Source of the DNA: a virus
Strand: one strand, 5' to 3'
Virus record (IMG/VR): IMGVR_UViG_3300022920_000021
Coordinates: 1 to 34,556 of that record
DNA: 34,556 nt
The translations under genes and the position numbers were made by a program. The notes under the pieces are model-generated. The model was not told where the DNA came from. It searched no databases and saw only the letters and a program-made list of their open reading frames with translations. Below are positions 4,453 through 17,035 of this stretch, piece by piece. Position 1 is the first letter of the stretch; each line of letters starts with the position of its first letter.

Positions 4453-4845
4453 ATGAACACTACAAAAACGACCCGCATCCGAGCCACTGATGACTTGAAG
4501 CGAGAGTTTGCGCGCCGCCTAATGGAGCGCCTGGCGGACGCTGACATGAATCAGTCCGATTTAGCTCGTCGCGTTAAGATAAGTAAGGACGCGGTAAGCA
4601 CTTATGCGCGAGGTCGTTCTATACCCTCCCCAGATACCTTGCTAAAGATCAGCAAGGTGCTTGATATTGACCCTCAAGAGCTTTTACCCAAGCGATTTGA
4701 CACGGCCACGTTGCAAGCACCCTTTCAGCTCACAATGCTTGACGATGGCAGAGTAAGCATGTCAGTACAGGCAACGATGAGTTTTGAAACGGCCTCTAAA
4801 GTTATGGAGCTGTTGCGCCGTGAAAAAATTACTTCTGCAAGCTGA
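4453..4845 (+). CDS. XRE-family transcriptional repressor without a peptidase domain
   Basis: A 130-aa protein with a lambda-repressor-like helix-turn-helix at about residues 17-75: the segment MNQSDLARRVKISKDAVSTYA gives the recognition helices, followed by GRSIPSPDTLLKISKVLDI, the usual helices 4-5. The remaining 55 residues (from RFDTATLQ) form a short strand-rich tail, VSMSVQATMSFETASKVMELL, with no S24 autopeptidase, so it is unlikely to be cleaved directly after DNA damage like lambda CI. It is transcribed divergently from the early recombination operon and shares its transcript with xis and int, as for a phage immunity repressor. SD GGAG, seven bases before ATG. It might instead be Cro-like. 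Confidence 0.85.
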   Translation: MNTTKTTRIRATDDLKREFARRLMERLADADMNQSDLARRVKISKDAVSTYARGRSIPSPDTLLKISKVLDIDPQELLPKRFDTATLQAPFQLTMLDDGRVSMSVQATMSFETASKVMELLRREKITSAS

Positions 4846-5161
4846 AGCGGCGCAACTGCTAAGGTGCAGTGTTTCAACAATTAAACGTATGCGGAGCCAA
4901 GGAAAGCTCCCGTACCTGCCCGGCCGACCAGTGCGGATTCGGGAAGAAGACTTAGAAAAATACATGGAGCTGAATCTATGGCAAGACCAATCGAACCCCC
5001 TCGACTCACCAAAGGCAAAACAGGCTATTACTACGTCAATTACCATGACGGACAGCGCAGCCGCCGAGAAACGCTGGCGACAAAAGACATTGAGGAAGCG
5101 AAAAGTAGGTTTAGCTACTGGCTTGTCGCTGCCAGCACCCCAGATCAGCAGCACAAAGTAA
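4820..5161 (+). CDS. Excisionase-like MerR/HTH_17 DNA-binding protein
   Basis: Reading from GTG at 4820 (GGAG ten bases upstream, inside the end of the repressor gene, 26-nt overlap) the first 60 residues give a winged-helix of the excisionase type: LLLQAEAAQLLRCSVSTIKRM, then GKLPYLPGRPVRIREEDLEKYM. This is the standard pattern of small proteins that bend DNA and steer a tyrosine integrase toward excision. Beyond residue about 60 the frame stays open to 5161 and overlaps the integrase start by 184 nt; that tail (Ser/Thr/Lys-rich, QKTLRKRKVG) looks unstructured. An upstream TTG at 4784 is a less likely start. The order repressor, xis, int is typical of temperate phages. Confidence 0.72.
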   Translation: MKKLLLQAEAAQLLRCSVSTIKRMRSQGKLPYLPGRPVRIREEDLEKYMELNLWQDQSNPLDSPKAKQAITTSITMTDSAAAEKRWRQKTLRKRKVGLATGLSLPAPQISSTK

Positions 5162-5976
5162 CCGATCTTGCCGATTTATACGAAAAAGAGCATTTGGATG
5201 GATGCGCCGACCCGGCTCGCCAGATACAAAGGCTTAATTTTGTGCGCCAGCATTTTGGCGAACTATCACCAGATGAAATCACGCCACAGGTAGTAGCCTT
5301 TTATAGCAAGCGTAGGCCGGTCAAGGCTGCGACAATTCGCGGTGAATTGGCAATACTGAAAGCTGCGCTGAATCATAATGTCAAAGCTGGACGCATATCC
5401 GGTTTTCCCCACATCAAATTACCTGACAAAGGCGCGCCGAGGGACCGATGGCTCAGTGCCGATGAAATTGCTCGCCTGGCAGACTCACTAGCAAACTCCC
5501 GCGCCGGAAAACGGTTATCACGGCCGGAAAGATTCACTCATATTGCTTTGGAGGCCGCAGCTCGCAAGCGGAGTATTGAAACACTGCCTTGGGAACGAGT
5601 GGACCTCAAGCAAGGCACAATAGATTTTCGCGATCCTGAAAAAATTCAGACGAAAAAAAGGCAAGCCATCGTCCCAATCAGTGATCGCTTGCTCCCGATT
5701 TTAGTCAGAGCGCATGAAGAACGCACCAGCCGCTGGGTTTTGGACAGCACTGGAAGTATAAGGAAAAGTTTTGAAACGAGTCTGGTAAAGGCAGGGTTGC
5801 CTGATGTAACGCCGCACGTTTTACGCCATACCGCAGCAACACATATGGCGCGTAACGGAGTGCCGCTTTGGCACATAGCCGGTATTTTAGGAAATTCAGT
5901 GCAAATGGTCGAACAGACCTATGCGCATCACTGCCCAGAGGGGCTTAGGAAAGCAATAAATTATGTACGCACTTAA
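4978..5976 (+). CDS. int: Tyrosine recombinase, phage integrase
   Basis: A 332-aa integrase. Residues 5-50 form an arm-type DNA-binding domain (KGKTGYYYVNYHDGQRSRRE), 60-150 the core-binding domain, and 160-332 the catalytic domain. Catalytic set: Arg196 (AAARKRSIETLPW), Lys about 226 in the hairpin (QTKKRQAIVPI), His280 and Arg283 (TPHVLRHTAATHM) and Tyr315 (VEQTYAHH). At the position that is most often His (LGH) it has Asn306 (LGNS), which is seen in related integrases with a YxHH ending. SD GGAG eight bases before ATG. It catalyses site-specific recombination between attP and a host tRNA-Met gene; the attP found 600 bases downstream supports this. Confidence 0.95.
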   Translation: MARPIEPPRLTKGKTGYYYVNYHDGQRSRRETLATKDIEEAKSRFSYWLVAASTPDQQHKVTDLADLYEKEHLDGCADPARQIQRLNFVRQHFGELSPDEITPQVVAFYSKRRPVKAATIRGELAILKAALNHNVKAGRISGFPHIKLPDKGAPRDRWLSADEIARLADSLANSRAGKRLSRPERFTHIALEAAARKRSIETLPWERVDLKQGTIDFRDPEKIQTKKRQAIVPISDRLLPILVRAHEERTSRWVLDSTGSIRKSFETSLVKAGLPDVTPHVLRHTAATHMARNGVPLWHIAGILGNSVQMVEQTYAHHCPEGLRKAINYVRT

Positions 5977-6394
5977 TAAGACTTATAAACGCAGCATTCA
6001 AGCTAATGAAATGTGCGCCGATCCTACAATACAAAAATTTTTGAAATACTGGGAGTATTTTGCACCTGTCAGCACAGAACACATGTATGAAATGCTTGAT
6101 TTCATTCTGGGCGCATTTGATAACTTGCCCGCATGTATAACAAATTCAAAAGAGGCCGCGCCATTTGTCGAGCGCATATACAACGAAAAATTGAAGTCTA
6201 TGCACAGAAGCGACAATGAAATGCTGAAATGGCATCTTGGCAGTCCGAATACTGTTGCGCAGGATAGCGTTTACTATTTTGATTACAACTGGACCTGTCT
6301 TGAAAGCTGGAAGTTATTCGCTCACCATTTAGATGCGACCTACCATGATATTACTAATAACATGGATTTGGTTTGCCTTGCAGATCAGTCGTAA
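5963..6394 (+). CDS. 143-aa unknown protein between int and attP
   Basis: An unrecognised protein overlapping the end of int by 14 nt. It is rich in aromatic residues (many Tyr, Phe and Trp, for example VYYFDYNWTCLESWKLFAHH) and is predicted to be helical and soluble, with no signal peptide or membrane segment. The codon third positions look more A/T-rich than in the rest of the phage, a hint of recent acquisition. Genes placed between the integrase and attP in temperate phages are often accessory cargo expressed in the lysogen (morons). That role is inferred from position. A second start, ATG at 6011, is possible. It shares the repressor transcript and ends just before the first arm repeat and the terminator. 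Confidence 0.65.
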   Translation: MYALNKTYKRSIQANEMCADPTIQKFLKYWEYFAPVSTEHMYEMLDFILGAFDNLPACITNSKEAAPFVERIYNEKLKSMHRSDNEMLKWHLGSPNTVAQDSVYYFDYNWTCLESWKLFAHHLDATYHDITNNMDLVCLADQS

Positions 6395-6396
6395 TT

Positions 6397-6435
6397 TGCG
6401 TTCTATTTGCGCTTTAAAGCCCCATTTGCGCTTTA
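6397..6435 (+). repeat. Left arm-type repeats of attP
   Basis: TGCGTTCTATTTGCGCTTTA at 6397-6416 begins two bases after the stop of the 143-aa gene. Its second half ATTTGCGCTTTA recurs at 6424-6435. The full 20-mer recurs, in the same orientation, at the right end of attP. Direct repeats flanking a recombination core are the normal layout of integrase arm-binding sites. Confidence 0.65.
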
Positions 6436-6484
6436 TATGCGTCTACTTTGGTCTACTGTGAACTATAGACAATACCCCGAAAGG

Positions 6485-6512
6485 CCCGCATCATGCGGGT
6501 TTCATCGTTTTT
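6485..6512 (+). terminator. Rho-independent terminator after the integrase block
   Basis: The perfect stem CCCGCA (6485-6490) and TGCGGG (6494-6499) has a three-base loop TCA and is followed by TTTCATCGTTTTT. It stops the repressor-xis-int-143aa transcript before the attP core. On the other strand the same hairpin is followed by CCTTTC, so it may also weakly stop the virion operon transcript coming from the right. Confidence 0.7.
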
Positions 6513-6538
6513 GGGCCTGTAGACGTTTTCGCGCGAGG

Positions 6539-6586
6539 GCATTCATAATGCTGGGGTCGATGGTTCAAGTCCATCCGTAGCCACCA
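6539..6586 (+). other. tRNA-Met 3' half (attP core), not a complete tRNA gene
   Basis: The stretch reads as an elongator tRNA-Met from the anticodon stem to the CCA end: loop TTCATAA with anticodon CAT (6544-6546), variable region GGGTC, T-stem GATGG/CCATC with loop TTCAAGT, acceptor strand CGTAGCC, discriminator A and CCA (6584-6586). The 5' half is absent: upstream of 6539 the anticodon stem no longer pairs (GGG facing CTG, with one mismatch and one G-T pair) and phage sequence follows. On integration this segment restores the host tRNA. It is therefore the identity segment for recombination, with the crossover probably in the anticodon loop, whose flanks GCATT/AATGC are symmetrical. Confidence 0.85.
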
Positions 6587-6623
6587 TTTATACCCAGTAA
6601 CTACGCCGTTTTCCGGCCTTTCG

Positions 6624-6638
6624 TCTACATTCTGTAGA
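6624..6638. promoter_or_regulatory. 15-bp dyad TCTACATTCTGTAGA in the right arm of attP
   Basis: A perfect inverted repeat, TCTACA and TGTAGA around TTC, containing a GTCTAC box at 6623-6628. It may be a binding site for Xis or the repressor, or, read on the minus strand after the 265-aa gene, part of a weak transcript end. Confidence 0.4.
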
Positions 6639-6656
6639 AACTCGACTGACCTGATA

Positions 6657-6676
6657 TGCGTTCTATTTGCGCTTTA
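6657..6676 (+). repeat. Right arm-type repeat of attP
   Basis: A second exact copy of the 20-bp repeat at 6397-6416, same orientation, 260 bp away. Its final TTA is also the stop codon (TAA on the minus strand) of the 265-aa gene, so the late operon ends exactly where the attP arm ends. Confidence 0.65.
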
Positions 6677-7471
6677 TTGTGAGAATAAGCCCGCAATCCG
6701 ATCCAATAGCGTTTCAGGCTCACCGGCTCGCCTGGCGGAGTTACGCTCACTCAATCCTGATTCCCACTCCTTCAGCGATTCTAGTTCCTTCATTTTCCGG
6801 AACCAAACTGATCTTTTTGTGCGGTCCTCTATGTACTCACCTTTCGGACCTAGCATCATGCTTTCGGGAGCAGCGGGATTTCTTGCGCCACGATCATAAT
6901 CCCTGCCGTAAAAATGGCGAGGCGATCCTGTTCGCGGGTGTAGTATCTCTAGCAAACGCTCCTGCGCATCGCCTAACGGCATTGTATTGCCCCTTCGATA
7001 CTCCCAATCTCGGTGCATCTCTACTGCCGAACCCCAGTCTGCATCGGTTTGAGCGGACATAGCATCGAACTTCCTATTTGAGCCTTCGTTGTTGCCATCT
7101 TCGCCCATTTGATGCCTATACTCATGCGCCCACGTTCTTGGCTGGGCTTCATCGTTAATGGCGTTAACAGTGCCGCGCTCCAACGGAACCTCCGTCTTTC
7201 CTCCCTCATCATTCTTGTATCGGTATCGCCTCTGCTCTCTAGCTAATGCCTCATCACTAATATCAGGAGGTACATTAAACCCACCAGTATCTAGGCGGCC
7301 CGGTCCTTTCCAGCCATGATAGCGAGCTATAGAAGGATCAAGAGGCGCGGCGTAGTCATAATAAGGTGCCAGCTCCGTCTGAAATTCCATGTCGCCCAGC
7401 TGCTCAGACATGGCTCTGAGTTCCTCCGGGGATCGACCGCCGTAAATTCTTGAAAAAATATCATCTGCCAT
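6674..7471 (-). CDS. 265-aa protein with an HEXXH zinc-protease-like motif
   Basis: Last gene of the late operon, starting three bases after the giant gene. The middle reads RTWAHEYRHQMGED, with His116-Glu117-x-x-His120, the zinc-binding and catalytic signature of metallopeptidases. A third ligand could be one of several later acidic or His residues (AVEMHRDWEY), but I cannot identify it. The first half carries a domain of the kind that precedes such motifs in phage polyvalent neighbours (GGFNVPPDISDEALAREQRRY). The C-terminus is charged and helical. No signal peptide. It may be a virion-associated or injected peptidase, or a former part of the giant protein, which has its own HEWGH. Function is inferred. 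Confidence 0.8.
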   Translation of the reverse strand: MADDIFSRIYGGRSPEELRAMSEQLGDMEFQTELAPYYDYAAPLDPSIARYHGWKGPGRLDTGGFNVPPDISDEALAREQRRYRYKNDEGGKTEVPLERGTVNAINDEAQPRTWAHEYRHQMGEDGNNEGSNRKFDAMSAQTDADWGSAVEMHRDWEYRRGNTMPLGDAQERLLEILHPRTGSPRHFYGRDYDRGARNPAAPESMMLGPKGEYIEDRTKRSVWFRKMKELESLKEWESGLSERNSARRAGEPETLLDRIAGLFSQ

Positions 7472-7474
7472 TAT

Positions 7475-10400
7475 TTATTTCCTTTCTTCTCTTTCTGGTC
7501 TTTCTGGTCTTTCTGGTCTTTTTCTTTGGTTTGCGCGCTTTTCAGCCGCTTCTTCCCGCTGCCGCAGGTATTCATCGTAAGGTGATTCATCGTCAGGAGC
7601 GCCCTTGTCGCCAGCCATAAAGGTTGCAAAAGCCTCAGCAGCCTGTGGGCCAGAGCCTTTGGACAGTGTTATCCAGGCGAGAGGACCGGTGGCCGCAGCG
7701 GCATTCGTTACAAACGGCAGTCCGATACCCGCAGTGAGCTGATAACCTGCTTTCCATGCTTTCCACTCTGCCGTGTTGGTGTCAGAATCATCGGTGATGC
7801 CTTTCATAATGTCTTGCAGATGACCCAAATAGTACGAGGGTACGGCACCAATGGCAGTTTCATGCAGACTACGGTTGTATTTAAAGCTACTTTCCGCCTG
7901 ATACACCGGATCAGTCATACCAAAGAAGCCAGCAACAGACAGTCCATCTAGAAGCGCCCTAAAGGGATCGTCTGTCCAGCGGTTAATAGTGCGTTGCGCC
8001 CGCGTGTTGCCATCCTCGTCTTCACCAAATGGGTCTTTCCAAACGTCCCTAGCAAGCCGCATCGCCATTTGTCCGGCGATCAACAGCGCCACAACCGACA
8101 TTATATTCATAGTGTAGGCCGCTGACTCGTCCCATTTTGCTTCCCCCGCTTTTAGCTTTTTGGTTCCTGTTATGGCTTTTTTCCCCTGCGCTATGATGAC
8201 ATTGCGCTGGAAAGTAGATGAAAAAGACATGAGCGAGGTCAACAATCGGCCTAGCGGAGAGAAAGCTATAGCAGGGCGATCCACCGCTCGCGGGTTCTGA
8301 ATTGATTGATCTACGAAACGATTCATCGCCGTTATGTAATAGTCAACCAAAGGGGCTTCATCTGGATTCTCTAGCTGCCCTTTTCGCGGAGAATCAACGA
8401 GCTTCAACACCCACTCGGCAAATTTTTCTTGGTCCTTTGCCAAAATTCCCAATTCACCTAGCGCATCCTTTGCTGAAACTTTTTCTCGATCACTCCCGTT
8501 TAGCAGTCGGCCCGCCTCGGTTCTGAGAGCTTTATGGGCTATTGTCGAAACGCCTCGGCGTGATGCTTGTGTGTAGCCAAACACACCGATAGCGCGGAAA
8601 ATATTACTCATAAACGCTTGCATTTGCTGGGAGTCACTTCCGTTCATCATCATTTTATTGTGCATGATGTTGTCCGAAATTATGTCTCCGGTGAGTCCGA
8701 TAAACTCCGCCATCTCACGCCTGGCGCGCGCGGAATCTGTCGCGTTCAGCAAATCCTTCATGGTTTCGCCCATTGCGCGGACACTATCTTTCACATCTCC
8801 GGATCGAAAACCGGCAACTATCGGTTCAGGTATGGAAACAAACAGCGTGTTAACAAGCATGGCAGCATTGCCTAAATGGAACATCCAGTTGGCTGTGTTT
8901 CCTTCTTCAGCAACTACTGGCTTATATGCCCCGGCAGCAATTTTGACCGCTCTATTAACCAATTTTAAGTCATCATCCTTGATACCCCGCGAATAAAGTT
9001 CGTCTTGGTGGTCAAATAAAATGTCATTCTTTGGACCAAAGCGTTTAGCCCAAGCGATCCTGCGGGAAGTAGATTGCAAGTAGCCATGTATAGCCACATC
9101 AACATCAGTGATGTAGTAGTCAGCGAGCAGTATTTCGGCAGACGCAGGAAGGGTTCTTGCTTTAGCAAAAGTCTGTGGCGGTCCTGACTTTTCTGCTGCA
9201 AAAAACTCGCTAACCGTTTGTTCGTACAGCCACTCCTCCGCCATTTGTCGAGGATCGCGCGCACTCCACTGAGCAAGCTCCTGTTTCAGCTCGTCTACCT
9301 TCGCATCATTACCCTCATTTTCTCGTATCTGCGTTCGCAGCTTGAATGTCTCGCTACGCCTTTGGTCTTCGTAAACTATTGTTGCTGCGGCAAGAAATCC
9401 TTCACGGTCATTTTCTACTTTTTCAGAATCGAGAATCCTTGGCAAATAGCCTTGGGTCATTACATAGCCCATGCCAATATGAGCATCATTAGCGGCATTA
9501 TACTGGTCATCCATCAGCTTCCGTATGGCCTGACCGGCCTTTGCTACATTGTTATCGCCAGTCTTAACTCGGTTTTCAAAATCTTCCAACGAGGCGGATA
9601 GAACCCCATGTCTGCGCCGCGAGTTAGCTAAGTGTGCCTTCGCTGCTGCCAGATTCTTAACGTCTTTTTTGGTAGGCTTTTTCGGCCAGTTTTCTTCGAT
9701 TTCATCCAAAATCAATTTGGCCTCATCGAGCATTTTGCGGGCTTCCACGACTTGAGACTCATAAGGCCGGGTCAAGATTTCTCGCAAATCAGCCATCTGC
9801 TCGTCATTATCAACATCAATCTTATAGCCTCTGAATATATTCCCCAGCTTATTCATTTGTTGCTTGAATGTAATATCAATGTCTTCTTCTAGCGTTCTCG
9901 GCTGGTCGCCTCCTGCACCCGGATCGGTAGCAATTTTCCGTAGCACTTTGCGTAACTCAGCTTGCAGCGGCCGATTGCCCTCATACTTGGCTATTAACCC
10001 CAGCAGCGTCCCTCTGGCAGTTGAAAGTGTAGTCCCAGATACCCACTCGTTTAGATACTTAACAGATGCAACCTGCCGGGCATCGGCTGCCAGCTCTTTA
10101 ATCTGTGTTCGCTTGTTATATAGCCTACGCAACCCAGACAGATCGTTCATTGTGGCGTTCCAAGCCTTCTTCATGCCAGACTCGCTGGAACGATCATTTA
10201 CCGCCTCGTTTATTTCCGCGTCTAGCCGGGAAAAAGGAGCAGGTAACTTAACATCTCGTTGTTGGGGAGTGCCAAATACGCGGTGATCGCCCAGCGCCAC
10301 AAACAAATCATCAAACGCTTGGTCAATCCGGTTCCTATCCACTTCTGATGGATAAATCAGCTGCATCAGCTGGTCAGAGTTGTTGTCGTAGTAGTCTTCT

Positions 10401-13400
10401 GATCCGGACATAAACTCGGACCCTTGCGCCTGGCCTATCTTACGGCCAATGTAAGATTCAAATGCGCGCGCAAATAGCTCCGTTGGGATTCCAAAATAAG
10501 TACCCTGTTCGCCACTGGTCAAAACGTCTGCGTAGTTTGATGATTGGGCAAACTCAGAAATCATATCCGCTAACAGTTCTTTCGCGTCTTTATTGAGCGT
10601 TTTCTTTTCTTGATCGCTATCCGCAATTCGTTTTTCTAGCAGAGATTTTCTGGCTCGCAGGGTATCAACCTCGGCCTGATACTCATCCCGCGTTTTCTTC
10701 CACTTTTCAATGTTGGAAGTGTGGGTATCTATTGCGCTAACAGTATTCTCGTAGTTTTTAGAACCGCGCCGTTGGCGACCCAGCTTATCTAGCGCAGATC
10801 GCAGAAGACCCTCTGCTCTGGTGATTTTTTCGTTCTCTTGATCCCGCCATCCGATCCGGGTTTCCAGCTTTTTGCTGACCTTTTTGACCTCTTTGTTGTC
10901 GGCCTCTAGCTGAGAGGTAAGATTACGCGCGCGGCCTTTAAGCTCCAGATACGGCTCTGGGTCTTTGTTGAAAAACAATGCTCGCGTAATGTTTCGCACC
11001 GCTTCATCAATTTTATAGCCGACTTCCCGGCGAGGTGTAAGCCCTTGTCGGCTCTGACCAGTAGCGCCAATATTATGAGCAGGGTTCTCTGATCCGCCTC
11101 GATGCGTTAATGCCTTTACGTTGAACTTATAGCTGCCATCCGGCTGTCGCACCATCGCGTTATACATCTGCAAGTACAGATCGAGTGCATGACCCCACTC
11201 ATGGGCGAATGAATCTGCGCGCCTGGCGAGAGACAGTGTGCTGCTCTCAAAACCAGAACGATAATTCCACTGGAACATACCTCTGGTGTCTTTATTACCC
11301 AGAGTATTCACCAGAGACAGAATCAGATTGCCTTCAAAGCCTACCGCTGTATCGCGCATACCGACTATGGCAGCCATGTTTCGTAGGTTTTCATAAGCAT
11401 CCAGCAGGGCATCCATCGCTTCTCGCGGGTTAGCCTTCGCGCCAATATGAACAGACTTAAATCCATACCGGTTCGCCACCATCATTTTGGCTTTCTTTAG
11501 CTGCTCCTCGATGCTCATGGTTGCAAGCAGCGCAACCTCGCGATCATCACCATTACTCAGGTGCCAGAACATAGACTCGTAAGGAGATGATGTAACCTTC
11601 TTACGCTTAGGAGCTAGGTCTGGAATTTTGTTTTTATCGCGTTTCTTTTTACGGGCTTTAATCTTTCGCCTGGCGACTCGCTTCACGCCATCACTGCCGC
11701 CACTTGCGCCCCGGCCACTTTCCGGGCCTGTTGGTTCTTTGCCTGTCTTTGCTCCGACAGCAGAGTCATTCAAGCTACTGGGCAGGTTATCAGTCAGATC
11801 AGCATCATCGTTATCTGTGTCCTGCTGATCCGTATCCTGATCGCTGTTAGACTGTCGATCAACCACAAGATCATAAATATCGGAGCTTGCATTAGCGCCA
11901 TCATCCCACCGGCCGGCCATCCCAATAGCAGCTTCGTAGATGTCTCGCGCAGGAACCCCTGCTGCTAACGCGGCATCAATGGCACCGGTAGACTGCGGGA
12001 AGTGCCAGTGCAGGTTCTGTGCATCGGTGGCATCGAGGTAGTTGTTGGCCATGAAGAAGGCGTATGAAAATCCTTCTGGGAACTTAGACCGGGCTTGCTT
12101 TGCCTTGCGATTCTTTCCGCCAGGCGTATTAGCCGTTCCTTTGTCTGATCCGCCAAGGTTCGCTGTCGGCAGATCGGTACGGAAATTACCCCAAAGACTG
12201 GTTGGTTTATTGAAATCATCACCGTAGTGGTAGTGAGAGTAGTTCAGTGCGGGCTTACCAAGGCCGGTCACGCTCCACGCTTCTTGATCCGGGTTGCGTG
12301 GAGTTGGACCCATAGACTGACCGATCCGCGATCCGCGAGGGTTTTCGATGAACCATACCGCAGGGCGGGTTTTTTCTATTATATCTAACGTATCAAATAC
12401 CAGCTGCTTCGCCGCCTCTGTTCGCCCATCAGCATCAGCAGCGGGGAAACTACGGGCATTAGATGAGCTGGATAAAACAGTACACGGTGGGAAAGCGAAT
12501 ACCCCGTAAACATGATCTTCGTTTTCAAGTTTGCCATACAACACATCAACGTCAATGTCTGATATGTCCACTCCGTTTTTAGCGTCCCAAGCATAGACGG
12601 TAAAGCCAGCTTCAATCCAAGGCTCACGCGCTACCCCTGATTCCTCAAACAGGAAGATAACCGATTTTTTCTTGTTTAATTCGCCATCAATTCCGCTCTC
12701 ATCCAGAATCTGGTTTTTCGCATGGCTTTTCCAGCCTTCGACAATCTCAGTTGCCTCGTCATAACTCACAACGTCTACTTTGTTTCTTTTGTGCATCGTC
12801 AGAGTTACCTGATCGTTGCTGAACAGCTCTACCTCCCAGTTAGTTGTTTTCCGATACTCGACAGGAATATTCTCATCTTGGAACTCCTCATACATCGTAC
12901 CTTTGGGCTGCTCTTGAAACTCAAACTTATTATTGTCATCTCTAGGTCCGAAACGCTTCCAGTAGGTTTCATCGTGATCCCGACCTTCTTCGCGGGCAAC
13001 GTACTCTGGTATCTCAAGAAGAAAATCATTCATCTTCTCGTAAAACCCTTCTGCATCACCGTAATACTCAAACAGATAAGCGGCATCAGATCGGTCTATC
13101 GAAACCTCTATCCAACCATATTCCAGTCCGTCTAGCGAATACTCAAAATTCCACAAGACTTCCGCTAATCGCTCCTCGATGAGGGTTCCTCTCAGCTTCT
13201 CAGCTTCCTTATTAGCCTCCTTTAGATTGGCGCGCGCCTGGCGATGAGCTTCTGGATTTTCTATAGAGGCCGGAAGCTCTTGTTCCTGCCCGGAGCTTTC
13301 ACCTTCTTCTTTATCGGCAGGGTTTTTACTTGTCCCTTCTGCTTCTCCCTCAACGCTTTCAGGTTCTTGTCCTCGTACTTCATCTAAATACTCCTCCAGC

Positions 13401-16400
13401 TTTTTCCTGCTAATAGCTTTACCGTCCAGCAGGAACCGGGTCCGCTTGGCCCCCTTTTCAGTAACGCTAGACTCTGCCTGAATATCACTGCCCAGATACT
13501 CTACTACCGGGCTGCTTCCTGTTTTTCCATCTGTTTTCTCACGATCTTGTGTCGCCTTCTTTACCAGCTGGTCTAACACCTTTTTAACCGGCAAATCAGA
13601 AGGCAGCTCAGACTGCTCTACTGGGTCTGCTTCGGCTTCGGTTTCGGTTTCGGTTGTCACAGGCTGGGTTTCCGCCCATCCAGCATACATTCTCAGCAAA
13701 GGTTTCCCGGCCAGCTTGTAGTAAGTGCCGTCCTCAGTTGGGACGTATAGTGCTGTGCCGGTGTAGTAAGACTGAACAGGACGGCCGTTGACCTTGTTCA
13801 TGTAGTTTCCCGCATCAAGGACATTCAAGTCGAGCATAGAGCCAGCCTGATATAGCCAGTCACTAATGCTGGGATGGTCCAGCGCTTCTTGGGCATTTTT
13901 CGCCAGATCAGCTATCGTCCAAGTGTGCCTTGGGTCTTTGCGCAGCTCCGCCAGGCGAGCGGTCGCAAAATCCTTAGCTACCGCCTCGACTTCGGCCTGT
14001 TTGTCTTTGGGGATTTTCTTTTCGTGATTTTCTTCAGCATAGTGTACATCGAGGTTTGGAGACTTCAACTCGATCGCCAGCTCGTTTATATGGTCGCCAA
14101 AATTTTCGATCGGTTGGCCGTCAACAAAGTACCGCTGAAACGTGCCGCGATCCTCTATAACGTGCCGGGCCTCATACTCTCGGCCATCGATGGTGGCAGT
14201 CTTTTCCTCGAAACCCTCATGGAATTCTTCTAACTGCTTTACCGGGTCTACTTCGGTTTCGGTTTCGGTCCGCCCTTCGGTATCGCTTGCTGGTGTTCCT
14301 TCAACAGGTAATCGTTGTCCAGTCGCTGCAACAGGTCCGCCGCTTTCTTCGCCATCGCCGGGTCTTTGTTCTGTTGGGCTGACTTCGCCATTGACTCCTG
14401 CATCCGGCGCAGGACTCTCAGCTCCGCCAGTGTTATCTTGCGCTTCCGGTTTTTCTTGGATTTCTTGCCCTTGCGCCCGTTGCCGACCTTCACTTAGAAC
14501 CCCCTTGGGATCACCTGTTTCATTGAACATATCAATGGCTTGCCCAGACGATATTGCCGCCTCGGCGTAAAACTTGAGCGCATCTGCTATCGACTTGCGG
14601 CCAGCAGCGCGACTTAAATCATCATTATAAAATGCCCGAATTAGCTCATCGACTATTGGGTCTTTATCCCCGAAAAGCCCATCCTGATCTATAAACTCTT
14701 GAACCGAACGGCCATTGCTCCTGATCTGGCTAACCGTTTCTACCGCCTCAACGAGTTTTGCTGATATATCCCACTCTGCATCAACCCGGCCAGCAGCTGT
14801 ATCCTCTCTGATCTGAGCAAACTGAGGTGCCACATCGAGCATCGCGCCAGTAATAGACTTCACGTTATTGTCTGTGCTTTCCAGCATCCTAGATAACGTA
14901 GCGTTCGATGTGCGGTTATCTTTGTCCCCGTAGGCCACGGCCAGAACCGCCGCTTGAATACGATTAACGCCAGGCGCAGACAGTGTGCCATCGTCCTGCA
15001 TGAATTCAGCCCGTTCTGCGGGATTCATGTTTTGCAGGAAGCGGCCTATAAACTCTCGGTTATTAACTCCGGTTATGTCTTCTGGCTGGAGCAGAGATAA
15101 GGTGGCTGTGTCGATCCGGGCGGCATCTGTATTAGCTTGCTCTGTGGCGGAGAACGACCCAGTGGCAGATTCATTGGCCTCGATGGCGAACGCTTGGCGA
15201 TCCTCCGGGGTCATTTCGGTATCTCGCACCCGAACCAATACAGGCTGATCGAAATCATCAACCTCCTGCTCAGTGGTTTCGCTCAACCATGTCCTGTATC
15301 CGTCCGCACCGTCCGCCTCATAGGCTCCACGGATTGCCGCGACTCTGCCATTGCCTGACTCAACCATGCCATCAGGGCCGACTATAGGCGCTCCACGGTC
15401 AGCCTCTGGAGAAGCACCCAGCCGGGCCGGGTCAAGATTGTTTTGAATGTCGTTAATCTGCGCAGTGGATGCCGCGCGATTGCCTCTGTCGCGGGGCTGG
15501 AGCGCAGGATCGTAGTCTTCCTGATCGCTGGTAGTTAGTGAGGAAGCCTCGACAATACGCCATTGAGTATCAACCTCACGGCCTTTAGCTGTGGATACCT
15601 TGGACCTGTCGGAACCTGAAACTGTGGCGGGAACGCCGGAAATAGGTTGAACCGCCTGTTCCCCAGAAGGAGAGACAGGCGGCTCGTTTTGGCCCTCCGA
15701 TTGAAACGGAGCTGAACCCATTGGAGGCGGAGGACCAGAAGGCCCATTATCGCCGTTTACATCAGGAGTTACAACGCCTGTATCTGGGCCTTCAAGCAAG
15801 AAATCATCATCACCGGGCTGCCCGACTGGGACCATTTGTTGGTCACTGGGAACAGACGATTCTGGAGCTGATTCTGGAGCTGATTCAGGAAATAGGTCAC
15901 TTACCTTGAGCTGATTTTTTTCCCAGTCTACCTTGTTTGACGCATAACCGATTCCAGACTCTACCGCGCCTGGCACTACCTCTCCAAATCCTTCTGCAAC
16001 AATGCTGAACGGATCATACTCATCGCCAGCCAGAGCTTGAGCAGTTGCCTCACCAGCACTGCCAGATGCGCCCTGCACAGCAATCTCTGCGCTGCCGCCA
16101 GCTAACTTTCCTAAAGTCGATGCGTCAGCCACATCGTCCACTTTGCTGGCTACTCTTGTCACTGGATCGGCCAGATTGCCAGCAATTCCTGCCGAAAACA
16201 TACCGAATAAACCAATACCAATGCCACGCTTTAGCGCCCGTTCCTTCGCTTTCTCCATAAAGCTACGATCAGAGAACGCCAAGCGTATACTGCGAGGGTC
16301 AGTCATATCGTAGCCGGATTCCGCCATTTCCTCCGCTATGACTAAATAATATTCCGTTGCTCCTTCCGCAGCACCAGCACCAGCAGCACCGCCCAATGCC

Positions 16401-17035
16401 GCGCCAATGGGCGAACCTGTTATAAGCCCTCCTCCTGCGCGACCAATCGCACTTGCCGCTACCCCGCCAAGGGATGGGGCCAAAGATTCCATTGTTAAAT
16501 CCCACAAAGCACCGGGGCTTGTGGCGAATCCTGCGGCTGTTTCAAGCAGTCCTGCATGTGGACCAAGTTTTCTTTGCAGTTGATATAAATCCTCAGACTG
16601 ACCTAACGCGTTCAAATCCTTTGTATTCTCTGCGATGCCTTCTATGTCGCCAGTAGCAATATCAAGCGCCTGTTCTGCACGATTCCACCCGCGTTGAAGC
16701 GGTTTGCCAGTGCTTTCATACAGTGCGCTCGCCAGGCGATCATACAGACCGGGCTGTTCTGGCTCTGCTGGTACAGGCACAGGTGATGGCACAGTAGGTG
16801 CGCTTGCAATCTTCTGATCCGGAATCTCAACTCTAGGTGGTTCAGGAACTGGATCGGCAATGCGCTCATCGGGAAGATCAATTACAGGCGCTGCTTCGGG
16901 CTGATAGCCCATACGGCGATCATATTCACCGCGATCCATATCGGAGTAATGATTATTGTAAAAACCATCGGCTAGTTCTTTATCCGAAAGATCGCTGTAC
17001 TCTGGATATTTCTCTCTAAGCGCCTGTAAGCTCAT
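7475..17035 (-). CDS. 3186-aa polyvalent virion protein: ParB-like, methyltransferase-like and metallopeptidase-like domains
   Basis: A giant multidomain protein. Residues 165-375 are Gly/Ala-rich and hydrophobic; 485-830 match a DdrB/ParB-like domain (VESGNGRVAAIRGAY); about 1453-1665 is a phage-type cytosine methyltransferase-like domain with a motif-I analogue (FLFEESGVAREPW), FPPCT with the candidate catalytic Cys1518, ENP at 1564-1566, KPTSLWGNF and PEGFSYAFFMAN; about 1850-2200 is an LPD1-like metallopeptidase domain with HEWGH at 1945-1949, a coiled-coil insert (2036-2145) and ELFARAFES after it; the last 700 residues are helical with hydrophobic stretches (about 2720 and 2975), like LPD38 ends. 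Known for polyvalent proteins: they are packaged and enter the cell with phage DNA. Linkers are acidic and repetitive; the end is PER-repeated and highly charged. Confidence 0.9.
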   Translation of the reverse strand: MSLQALREKYPEYSDLSDKELADGFYNNHYSDMDRGEYDRRMGYQPEAAPVIDLPDERIADPVPEPPRVEIPDQKIASAPTVPSPVPVPAEPEQPGLYDRLASALYESTGKPLQRGWNRAEQALDIATGDIEGIAENTKDLNALGQSEDLYQLQRKLGPHAGLLETAAGFATSPGALWDLTMESLAPSLGGVAASAIGRAGGGLITGSPIGAALGGAAGAGAAEGATEYYLVIAEEMAESGYDMTDPRSIRLAFSDRSFMEKAKERALKRGIGIGLFGMFSAGIAGNLADPVTRVASKVDDVADASTLGKLAGGSAEIAVQGASGSAGEATAQALAGDEYDPFSIVAEGFGEVVPGAVESGIGYASNKVDWEKNQLKVSDLFPESAPESAPESSVPSDQQMVPVGQPGDDDFLLEGPDTGVVTPDVNGDNGPSGPPPPMGSAPFQSEGQNEPPVSPSGEQAVQPISGVPATVSGSDRSKVSTAKGREVDTQWRIVEASSLTTSDQEDYDPALQPRDRGNRAASTAQINDIQNNLDPARLGASPEADRGAPIVGPDGMVESGNGRVAAIRGAYEADGADGYRTWLSETTEQEVDDFDQPVLVRVRDTEMTPEDRQAFAIEANESATGSFSATEQANTDAARIDTATLSLLQPEDITGVNNREFIGRFLQNMNPAERAEFMQDDGTLSAPGVNRIQAAVLAVAYGDKDNRTSNATLSRMLESTDNNVKSITGAMLDVAPQFAQIREDTAAGRVDAEWDISAKLVEAVETVSQIRSNGRSVQEFIDQDGLFGDKDPIVDELIRAFYNDDLSRAAGRKSIADALKFYAEAAISSGQAIDMFNETGDPKGVLSEGRQRAQGQEIQEKPEAQDNTGGAESPAPDAGVNGEVSPTEQRPGDGEESGGPVAATGQRLPVEGTPASDTEGRTETETEVDPVKQLEEFHEGFEEKTATIDGREYEARHVIEDRGTFQRYFVDGQPIENFGDHINELAIELKSPNLDVHYAEENHEKKIPKDKQAEVEAVAKDFATARLAELRKDPRHTWTIADLAKNAQEALDHPSISDWLYQAGSMLDLNVLDAGNYMNKVNGRPVQSYYTGTALYVPTEDGTYYKLAGKPLLRMYAGWAETQPVTTETETEAEADPVEQSELPSDLPVKKVLDQLVKKATQDREKTDGKTGSSPVVEYLGSDIQAESSVTEKGAKRTRFLLDGKAISRKKLEEYLDEVRGQEPESVEGEAEGTSKNPADKEEGESSGQEQELPASIENPEAHRQARANLKEANKEAEKLRGTLIEERLAEVLWNFEYSLDGLEYGWIEVSIDRSDAAYLFEYYGDAEGFYEKMNDFLLEIPEYVAREEGRDHDETYWKRFGPRDDNNKFEFQEQPKGTMYEEFQDENIPVEYRKTTNWEVELFSNDQVTLTMHKRNKVDVVSYDEATEIVEGWKSHAKNQILDESGIDGELNKKKSVIFLFEESGVAREPWIEAGFTVYAWDAKNGVDISDIDVDVLYGKLENEDHVYGVFAFPPCTVLSSSSNARSFPAADADGRTEAAKQLVFDTLDIIEKTRPAVWFIENPRGSRIGQSMGPTPRNPDQEAWSVTGLGKPALNYSHYHYGDDFNKPTSLWGNFRTDLPTANLGGSDKGTANTPGGKNRKAKQARSKFPEGFSYAFFMANNYLDATDAQNLHWHFPQSTGAIDAALAAGVPARDIYEAAIGMAGRWDDGANASSDIYDLVVDRQSNSDQDTDQQDTDNDDADLTDNLPSSLNDSAVGAKTGKEPTGPESGRGASGGSDGVKRVARRKIKARKKKRDKNKIPDLAPKRKKVTSSPYESMFWHLSNGDDREVALLATMSIEEQLKKAKMMVANRYGFKSVHIGAKANPREAMDALLDAYENLRNMAAIVGMRDTAVGFEGNLILSLVNTLGNKDTRGMFQWNYRSGFESSTLSLARRADSFAHEWGHALDLYLQMYNAMVRQPDGSYKFNVKALTHRGGSENPAHNIGATGQSRQGLTPRREVGYKIDEAVRNITRALFFNKDPEPYLELKGRARNLTSQLEADNKEVKKVSKKLETRIGWRDQENEKITRAEGLLRSALDKLGRQRRGSKNYENTVSAIDTHTSNIEKWKKTRDEYQAEVDTLRARKSLLEKRIADSDQEKKTLNKDAKELLADMISEFAQSSNYADVLTSGEQGTYFGIPTELFARAFESYIGRKIGQAQGSEFMSGSEDYYDNNSDQLMQLIYPSEVDRNRIDQAFDDLFVALGDHRVFGTPQQRDVKLPAPFSRLDAEINEAVNDRSSESGMKKAWNATMNDLSGLRRLYNKRTQIKELAADARQVASVKYLNEWVSGTTLSTARGTLLGLIAKYEGNRPLQAELRKVLRKIATDPGAGGDQPRTLEEDIDITFKQQMNKLGNIFRGYKIDVDNDEQMADLREILTRPYESQVVEARKMLDEAKLILDEIEENWPKKPTKKDVKNLAAAKAHLANSRRRHGVLSASLEDFENRVKTGDNNVAKAGQAIRKLMDDQYNAANDAHIGMGYVMTQGYLPRILDSEKVENDREGFLAAATIVYEDQRRSETFKLRTQIRENEGNDAKVDELKQELAQWSARDPRQMAEEWLYEQTVSEFFAAEKSGPPQTFAKARTLPASAEILLADYYITDVDVAIHGYLQSTSRRIAWAKRFGPKNDILFDHQDELYSRGIKDDDLKLVNRAVKIAAGAYKPVVAEEGNTANWMFHLGNAAMLVNTLFVSIPEPIVAGFRSGDVKDSVRAMGETMKDLLNATDSARARREMAEFIGLTGDIISDNIMHNKMMMNGSDSQQMQAFMSNIFRAIGVFGYTQASRRGVSTIAHKALRTEAGRLLNGSDREKVSAKDALGELGILAKDQEKFAEWVLKLVDSPRKGQLENPDEAPLVDYYITAMNRFVDQSIQNPRAVDRPAIAFSPLGRLLTSLMSFSSTFQRNVIIAQGKKAITGTKKLKAGEAKWDESAAYTMNIMSVVALLIAGQMAMRLARDVWKDPFGEDEDGNTRAQRTINRWTDDPFRALLDGLSVAGFFGMTDPVYQAESSFKYNRSLHETAIGAVPSYYLGHLQDIMKGITDDSDTNTAEWKAWKAGYQLTAGIGLPFVTNAAAATGPLAWITLSKGSGPQAAEAFATFMAGDKGAPDDESPYDEYLRQREEAAEKRANQRKRPERPERPEREERK
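14248..14493 (-). CDS. Nested 81-codon polybasic protein inside the giant gene (out of frame)
   Basis: In a second minus-strand frame, GTG at 14493 is preceded by AAGGGGG six bases upstream and directly by an in-frame TAA. It encodes a strongly basic protein: GRKGKKSKKNRKRK at the start, then a convincing amphipathic helix region (TLAELRVLRRMQESMAKSAQ and AKKAADLLQRLDNDYLLKEH), and a KPKPK end. The host frame here (residues about 848-929) is a low-complexity Pro/Glu/Ser/Gly linker that can tolerate constraint from a second frame. It looks far more protein-like than ordinary shadow frames in this gene. A DNA- or RNA-binding or virion-packaged basic protein is conceivable. It may still be chance. 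Confidence 0.4.
   Translation of the reverse strand: MKVGNGRKGKKSKKNRKRKITLAELRVLRRMQESMAKSAQQNKDPAMAKKAADLLQRLDNDYLLKEHQQAIPKGGPKPKPK

Follow-up and report, generated by a model that had tools for sequence, protein, structure and literature searches.

A probable attP site at the anticodon loop of tRNA-Met in an uncultured tailed phage

Positions 6394-6676 of the viral DNA analysed here, a stretch of 34,556 nucleotides referred to as the window, very probably serve a temperate tailed phage as the attP site for recombination at the anticodon loop of an elongator tRNA-Met gene, which is rebuilt in the process. Insertion into a host tRNA gene that stays functional is widespread among temperate phages. 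The evidence comes from the tRNA half at the centre of the site, from its flanking repeats and integrase, from candidate host genes and from the placement of the site in related phages.

A tRNA-Met 3' half between the integrase and the virion operon

The 48 bases at 6539-6586 on the plus strand, GCATTCATAATGCTGGGGTCGATGGTTCAAGTCCATCCGTAGCCACCA, are the 3' half of an elongator tRNA-Met(CAT), running from the middle of the anticodon stem to CCA. They comprise, in order, three anticodon-stem bases, the loop TTCATAA (6542-6548, with the anticodon CAT at 6544-6546), the variable region, the T arm, the 3' strand of the acceptor stem and the CCA end. ARAGORN detects no complete tRNA anywhere in the window, and the Rfam tRNA model scores the half at 17.9 bits, below its cut-off of 29; the 5' half is therefore absent. 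The window has one paired T arm with CCA behind it, against 0.017 per shuffled window, and the segment agrees with the tRNA-Met gene of Mangrovimicrobium sediminis at 47 of 48 positions. Together, this rarity and this match show that the half did not arise by chance.

In an alignment with tRNA-Met genes of Halieaceae and their neighbours, attP reads GGGCA ahead of the loop where the hosts read CAGCA, and identity begins at tRNA base 29. The initial annotation had placed a tRNA-Met 3' half that lacks its 5' partner between int and the virion operon's end; its location and coordinates were correct, and its assignment to an elongator tRNA-Met attP, with identity starting in the anticodon stem, is borne out. 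On the minus strand, the Rfam family HPnc0260 reached 36.8 bits, below its cut-off of 59, its best-aligned part being the T-arm region of the half; this match was set aside.

The half adjoins a tyrosine recombinase integrase of 332 aa (4978-5976, plus strand; Pfam PF00589, E 3.8e-18; PHROG 1, E 3.7e-50), which has the conserved catalytic residues R, HxxR and Y. Its start is overlapped by an HTH_17 gene (4820-5161, plus strand; Pfam PF12728, E 4.1e-13), from its position a possible excisionase, and family searches identify a Cro/CI-type repressor at 4453-4845 on the same strand. Between int and attP lies a 143-aa ORF (5963-6394, plus strand) with no Pfam or PHROG match. The genes to the right of attP are convergent with these: a 265-aa ORF with no family match (6674-7471, minus strand), the last gene on the virion-operon side, and then a large polyvalent protein of 3186 aa with ddrB-ParB and LPD1 domains (7475-17035, minus strand), which closes the virion operon. 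As is also seen in relatives, the C-terminal end of this protein points towards attP; the tail, capsid and terminase genes follow further up on the same strand.

The tRNA half is flanked by two 23-bp repeats, at 6394-6416 and 6654-6676, which share 22 of their 23 bases. The P arm (6394-6446, plus strand) also contains TTTGCGCTTTA at 6406 and 6425 and GTCTAC at 6441, which together with its 23-bp repeat are putative integrase arm sites; the P'-arm copy contains TTTGCGCTTTA at 6666. All three copies of TTTGCGCTTTA in the whole contig thus fall within the attP region. GTAGAC at 6519 and GTCTAC at 6623 (6519-6628), flanking the core, are further possible integrase sites. Hexamer counts alone do not single out the region, a count of four being not rare in the contig, and the 23-bp repeat is better evidence for attP than these counts. 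In addition, a stretch at 6482-6502 (plus strand), between the int-side ORFs and the core, matches the consensus of a terminator-like hairpin with a T tail. The sequence TTTGCGCT is also found beside int in the loci L214 and L216.

As phage genes flank the tRNA half on both sides, the molecule is not integrated at the tRNA-Met site, and neither a complete tRNA-Met nor host genes were seen next to it. To this extent the earlier description of a free, circularised phage stands, whereas its circularity does not follow from the IMG/VR record, which is linear, partial and devoid of end repeats. The contig is shorter than most relatives (40-49 kb). A contig derived from a tandem double prophage would carry an identical sequence here, because two tandem copies are separated by an intact attP that is likewise flanked by phage genes, and such an origin would fit a contig that does not show circularity. 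We nevertheless consider it very unlikely: the window contains no second copy, no host genes and no complete tRNA, and free phage or virion DNA is a simpler source.

Candidate host genes and predicted junctions

The exact 48-mer is absent from 84,980 species genomes (genome_contigs), and no viral contig carries it (viral_contigs). A relaxed pattern matched nine genomes, namely eight Oxalobacteraceae and Mangrovimicrobium sediminis; judging from the organism names, we take the latter to belong to Halieaceae, and Duganella and its relatives to Oxalobacteraceae. The tRNA-Met of M. sediminis is the best host match, with one difference from the 48-mer, and the earlier statement that attP predicts the host site exactly was accordingly too strong. 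In the family of M. sediminis, 100 of 140 genomes match the 48-mer within three mismatches, nearly always with one copy each. The order sample includes one other genome with at most two mismatches (G181), whose own family contains five genomes within that limit.

The missing 5' half can be read from these tRNA-Met genes, in which 34 of the 35 readable 5' halves are GGCTACGTAGCTCAGCTGGTTAGAGCACA. When the Mangrovimicrobium 5' half is joined to the phage 3' half in a modelled hybrid, ARAGORN calls a tRNA-Met with 7/7 acceptor pairs. Duganella and related Oxalobacteraceae match the first 37 bases exactly, with four differences that all lie in the acceptor strand, and in the modelled hybrid with a Duganella 5' half the acceptor stem pairs poorly; on these two grounds they were rejected as hosts. 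The inferred host would belong to Halieaceae or a neighbouring group, have the acceptor 5' strand GGCTACG and be missing from the collections searched.

The initial annotation also suggested looking for prophages flanked by the 48-bp segment; none was found in the sampled genomes. Likewise, 140 family, 369 class and 381 order genomes contained no close relative of the integrase, the sole match being weak (30%, E 4.6e-21); this is a weak negative, since the search lacked a positive control. With neither a lysogen nor an exact host site in the genomes searched, the tRNA half might be taken for a remnant of past recombination that the integrase no longer uses. This is highly improbable for a segment that departs at just one of its 48 bases from the gene of a living host and is accompanied by flanking repeats and an intact integrase, in an arrangement shared by many relatives.

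For the functional attP that we favour, the probable binding sites of the integrase (4978-5976) are the arm repeats and the core, and strand exchange with an elongator tRNA-Met gene would take place in the anticodon loop (6542-6548). One junction would then combine the host 5' half with the phage 3' half into a working tRNA-Met, as modelled above; the other would join the phage left side to the displaced host 3' half. The predicted junction sequence consists of GGCTACGTAGCTCAGCTGGTTAGAGCACA, followed by the 48-mer and by the phage sequence TTTATACCCAGTAACTACG. The attP gives a testable integration site and, from sequence alone, suggests Halieaceae or their neighbours as the likely hosts of an uncultured phage.

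A conserved slot in related phages

Among named phages, RHph_N65 and Mae-Yong1326-1 are the closest in terminase and integrase. Searches of viral_contigs by exact words, with the integrase alone or with the C-terminal part of the giant protein, returned no relatives; an alignment of the integrases of the window and of these two phages yielded 80 viral loci that were kept. When these loci with homologous integrases were scanned for a T arm with CCA, 20 of the 80 proved to have, near int, a tRNA half that is cut at the anticodon loop; L042 is a duplicate of L041. The halves are mostly Thr(GGT), with one Thr(CGT), four Val(CAC), one Val(GAC) and one inverted loop. The phage-specific left side of most homologous attPs stops just before the loop, and tRNA identity begins within the loop, which makes the anticodon loop their common unit. 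These comparisons agree with the earlier proposal of a crossover in the loop, and point to TTCATAA (6542-6548, plus strand) as the probable overlap region in the window. The inverted case, L080, carries a Thr-type half whose loop TTACCAA (1776-1782) reads as TTGGTAA on the other strand and may represent an inverted overlap region.

Rhizobium phage RHph_N65 (MN988536) resembles the window in its homologous integrase (42%) and TerL (43%) and in the tRNA 3' half placed between int and a convergent virion operon; it differs in that the tRNA is a tRNA-Thr(CGT) and the record a circular one of 48.7 kb. Microcystis phage Mae-Yong1326-1 (OP028995) shares a homologous integrase (40%), TerL (47%) and the giant virion protein. 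Its tRNA-Thr(GGT) 3' half adjoins the end of the giant gene and, unlike in the window, int lies about 12 kb from it. The virion DNA of this phage is linear with 366-bp terminal repeats (PMC9503304). In Mae-Yong1326-1 (reported on Microcystis, 71.8% GC) the tRNA-Thr(GGT) half, at L004:22960-23015, is unannotated, and it could serve to test that phage's host.

Six integrase loci came from longer relatives recognised by their terminase, with contigs of 32-44 kb. In each of the six, int and the giant protein's C-terminal end face each other across this slot. Only one or two of the six have a recognisable tRNA piece in the slot; in four of them none was detected. The slot of L217, from int to the giant gene, contains an apparent 5' half of tRNA-Gly(GCC) on the opposite strand, as judged by eye. 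In L070 and L218 the attP slot contains, just before the end of the giant gene, a compact hairpin, GAGGCCGG...CTGGCCTCACCA. Its inner stem differs between the two and yet pairs in both, and its end is tRNA-like; a T arm was not seen.

Anticodon-centred attP sites are common, accounting for 2083 of 3919 islands (Islander, PMC4383910). Anticodon-loop attPs of tyrosine-integrase phages and islands correspond to Islander class A (PMC4383910; Williams 2002 as cited there). The window shares with this class a tRNA 3' fragment that starts in the anticodon stem-loop, lies beside int and, in the model, restores the tRNA; it is distinguished by tRNA-Met and by host junctions that are predicted. Campylobacter prophages in tRNA-Met also have attachment sequences that start in the anticodon loop (PMC5025632); they are zot prophages of other hosts. 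With anticodon-loop attPs common and tRNA-Met already a known target, the site is ordinary in kind.

Restoring or replacing the host tRNA

Phages that use tRNA-dependent lysogeny disrupt the host tRNA when they integrate and supply a tRNA of their own in its place. The hallmarks of this mode are a short core, of about 10 bp, that does not rebuild the tRNA, together with a complete phage tRNA of the same isotype (PMC10865867). Such a layout is present in two related contigs, L214 and L031, and in the partial genome at hand the unsequenced portion could hide a tRNA. For the window itself we regard this mode as almost certainly wrong: the core is not short, with 48 bases and one difference from the nearest host, and rebuilds the gene in the model, so that no phage tRNA would be needed, and the window, a partial contig, holds no complete tRNA of the same isotype.

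In L214, a 12-bp attP core (GCCTTCACACGG, 2748-2759) and a complete tRNA-Val(CAC) (2856-2930) both lie between int and the giant virion gene. This layout matches the published description (PMC10865867) and makes L214 a candidate for tRNA-dependent lysogeny. L031 has a complete tRNA-Thr(GGT) (4782-4856) downstream of int and, about 90 bp upstream of this tRNA, a separate CTTGGTAA (4691-4698). Its layout fits that description as well; it is the weaker candidate, because its core is only 8 bp long and could be due to chance.

The window, where the tRNA-Met 3' half would rebuild the host gene, and the two candidates, where a phage tRNA would replace it, share homologous integrases. Tentatively, and with our judgement slightly on the doubtful side of even, a single attP slot may alternate between the two modes in this group of phages, in which case tRNA-dependent lysogeny would occur outside actinobacterial phages, beside ordinary relatives. 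Its occurrence outside actinobacteriophages was already discussed in a Sinorhizobium study (PMC12429752).

Altogether, one integrase family uses the anticodon loops of several tRNAs (Thr, Val and Met), and the comparison offers candidates for studying how phages may move between restoring and replacing the tRNA of their host.
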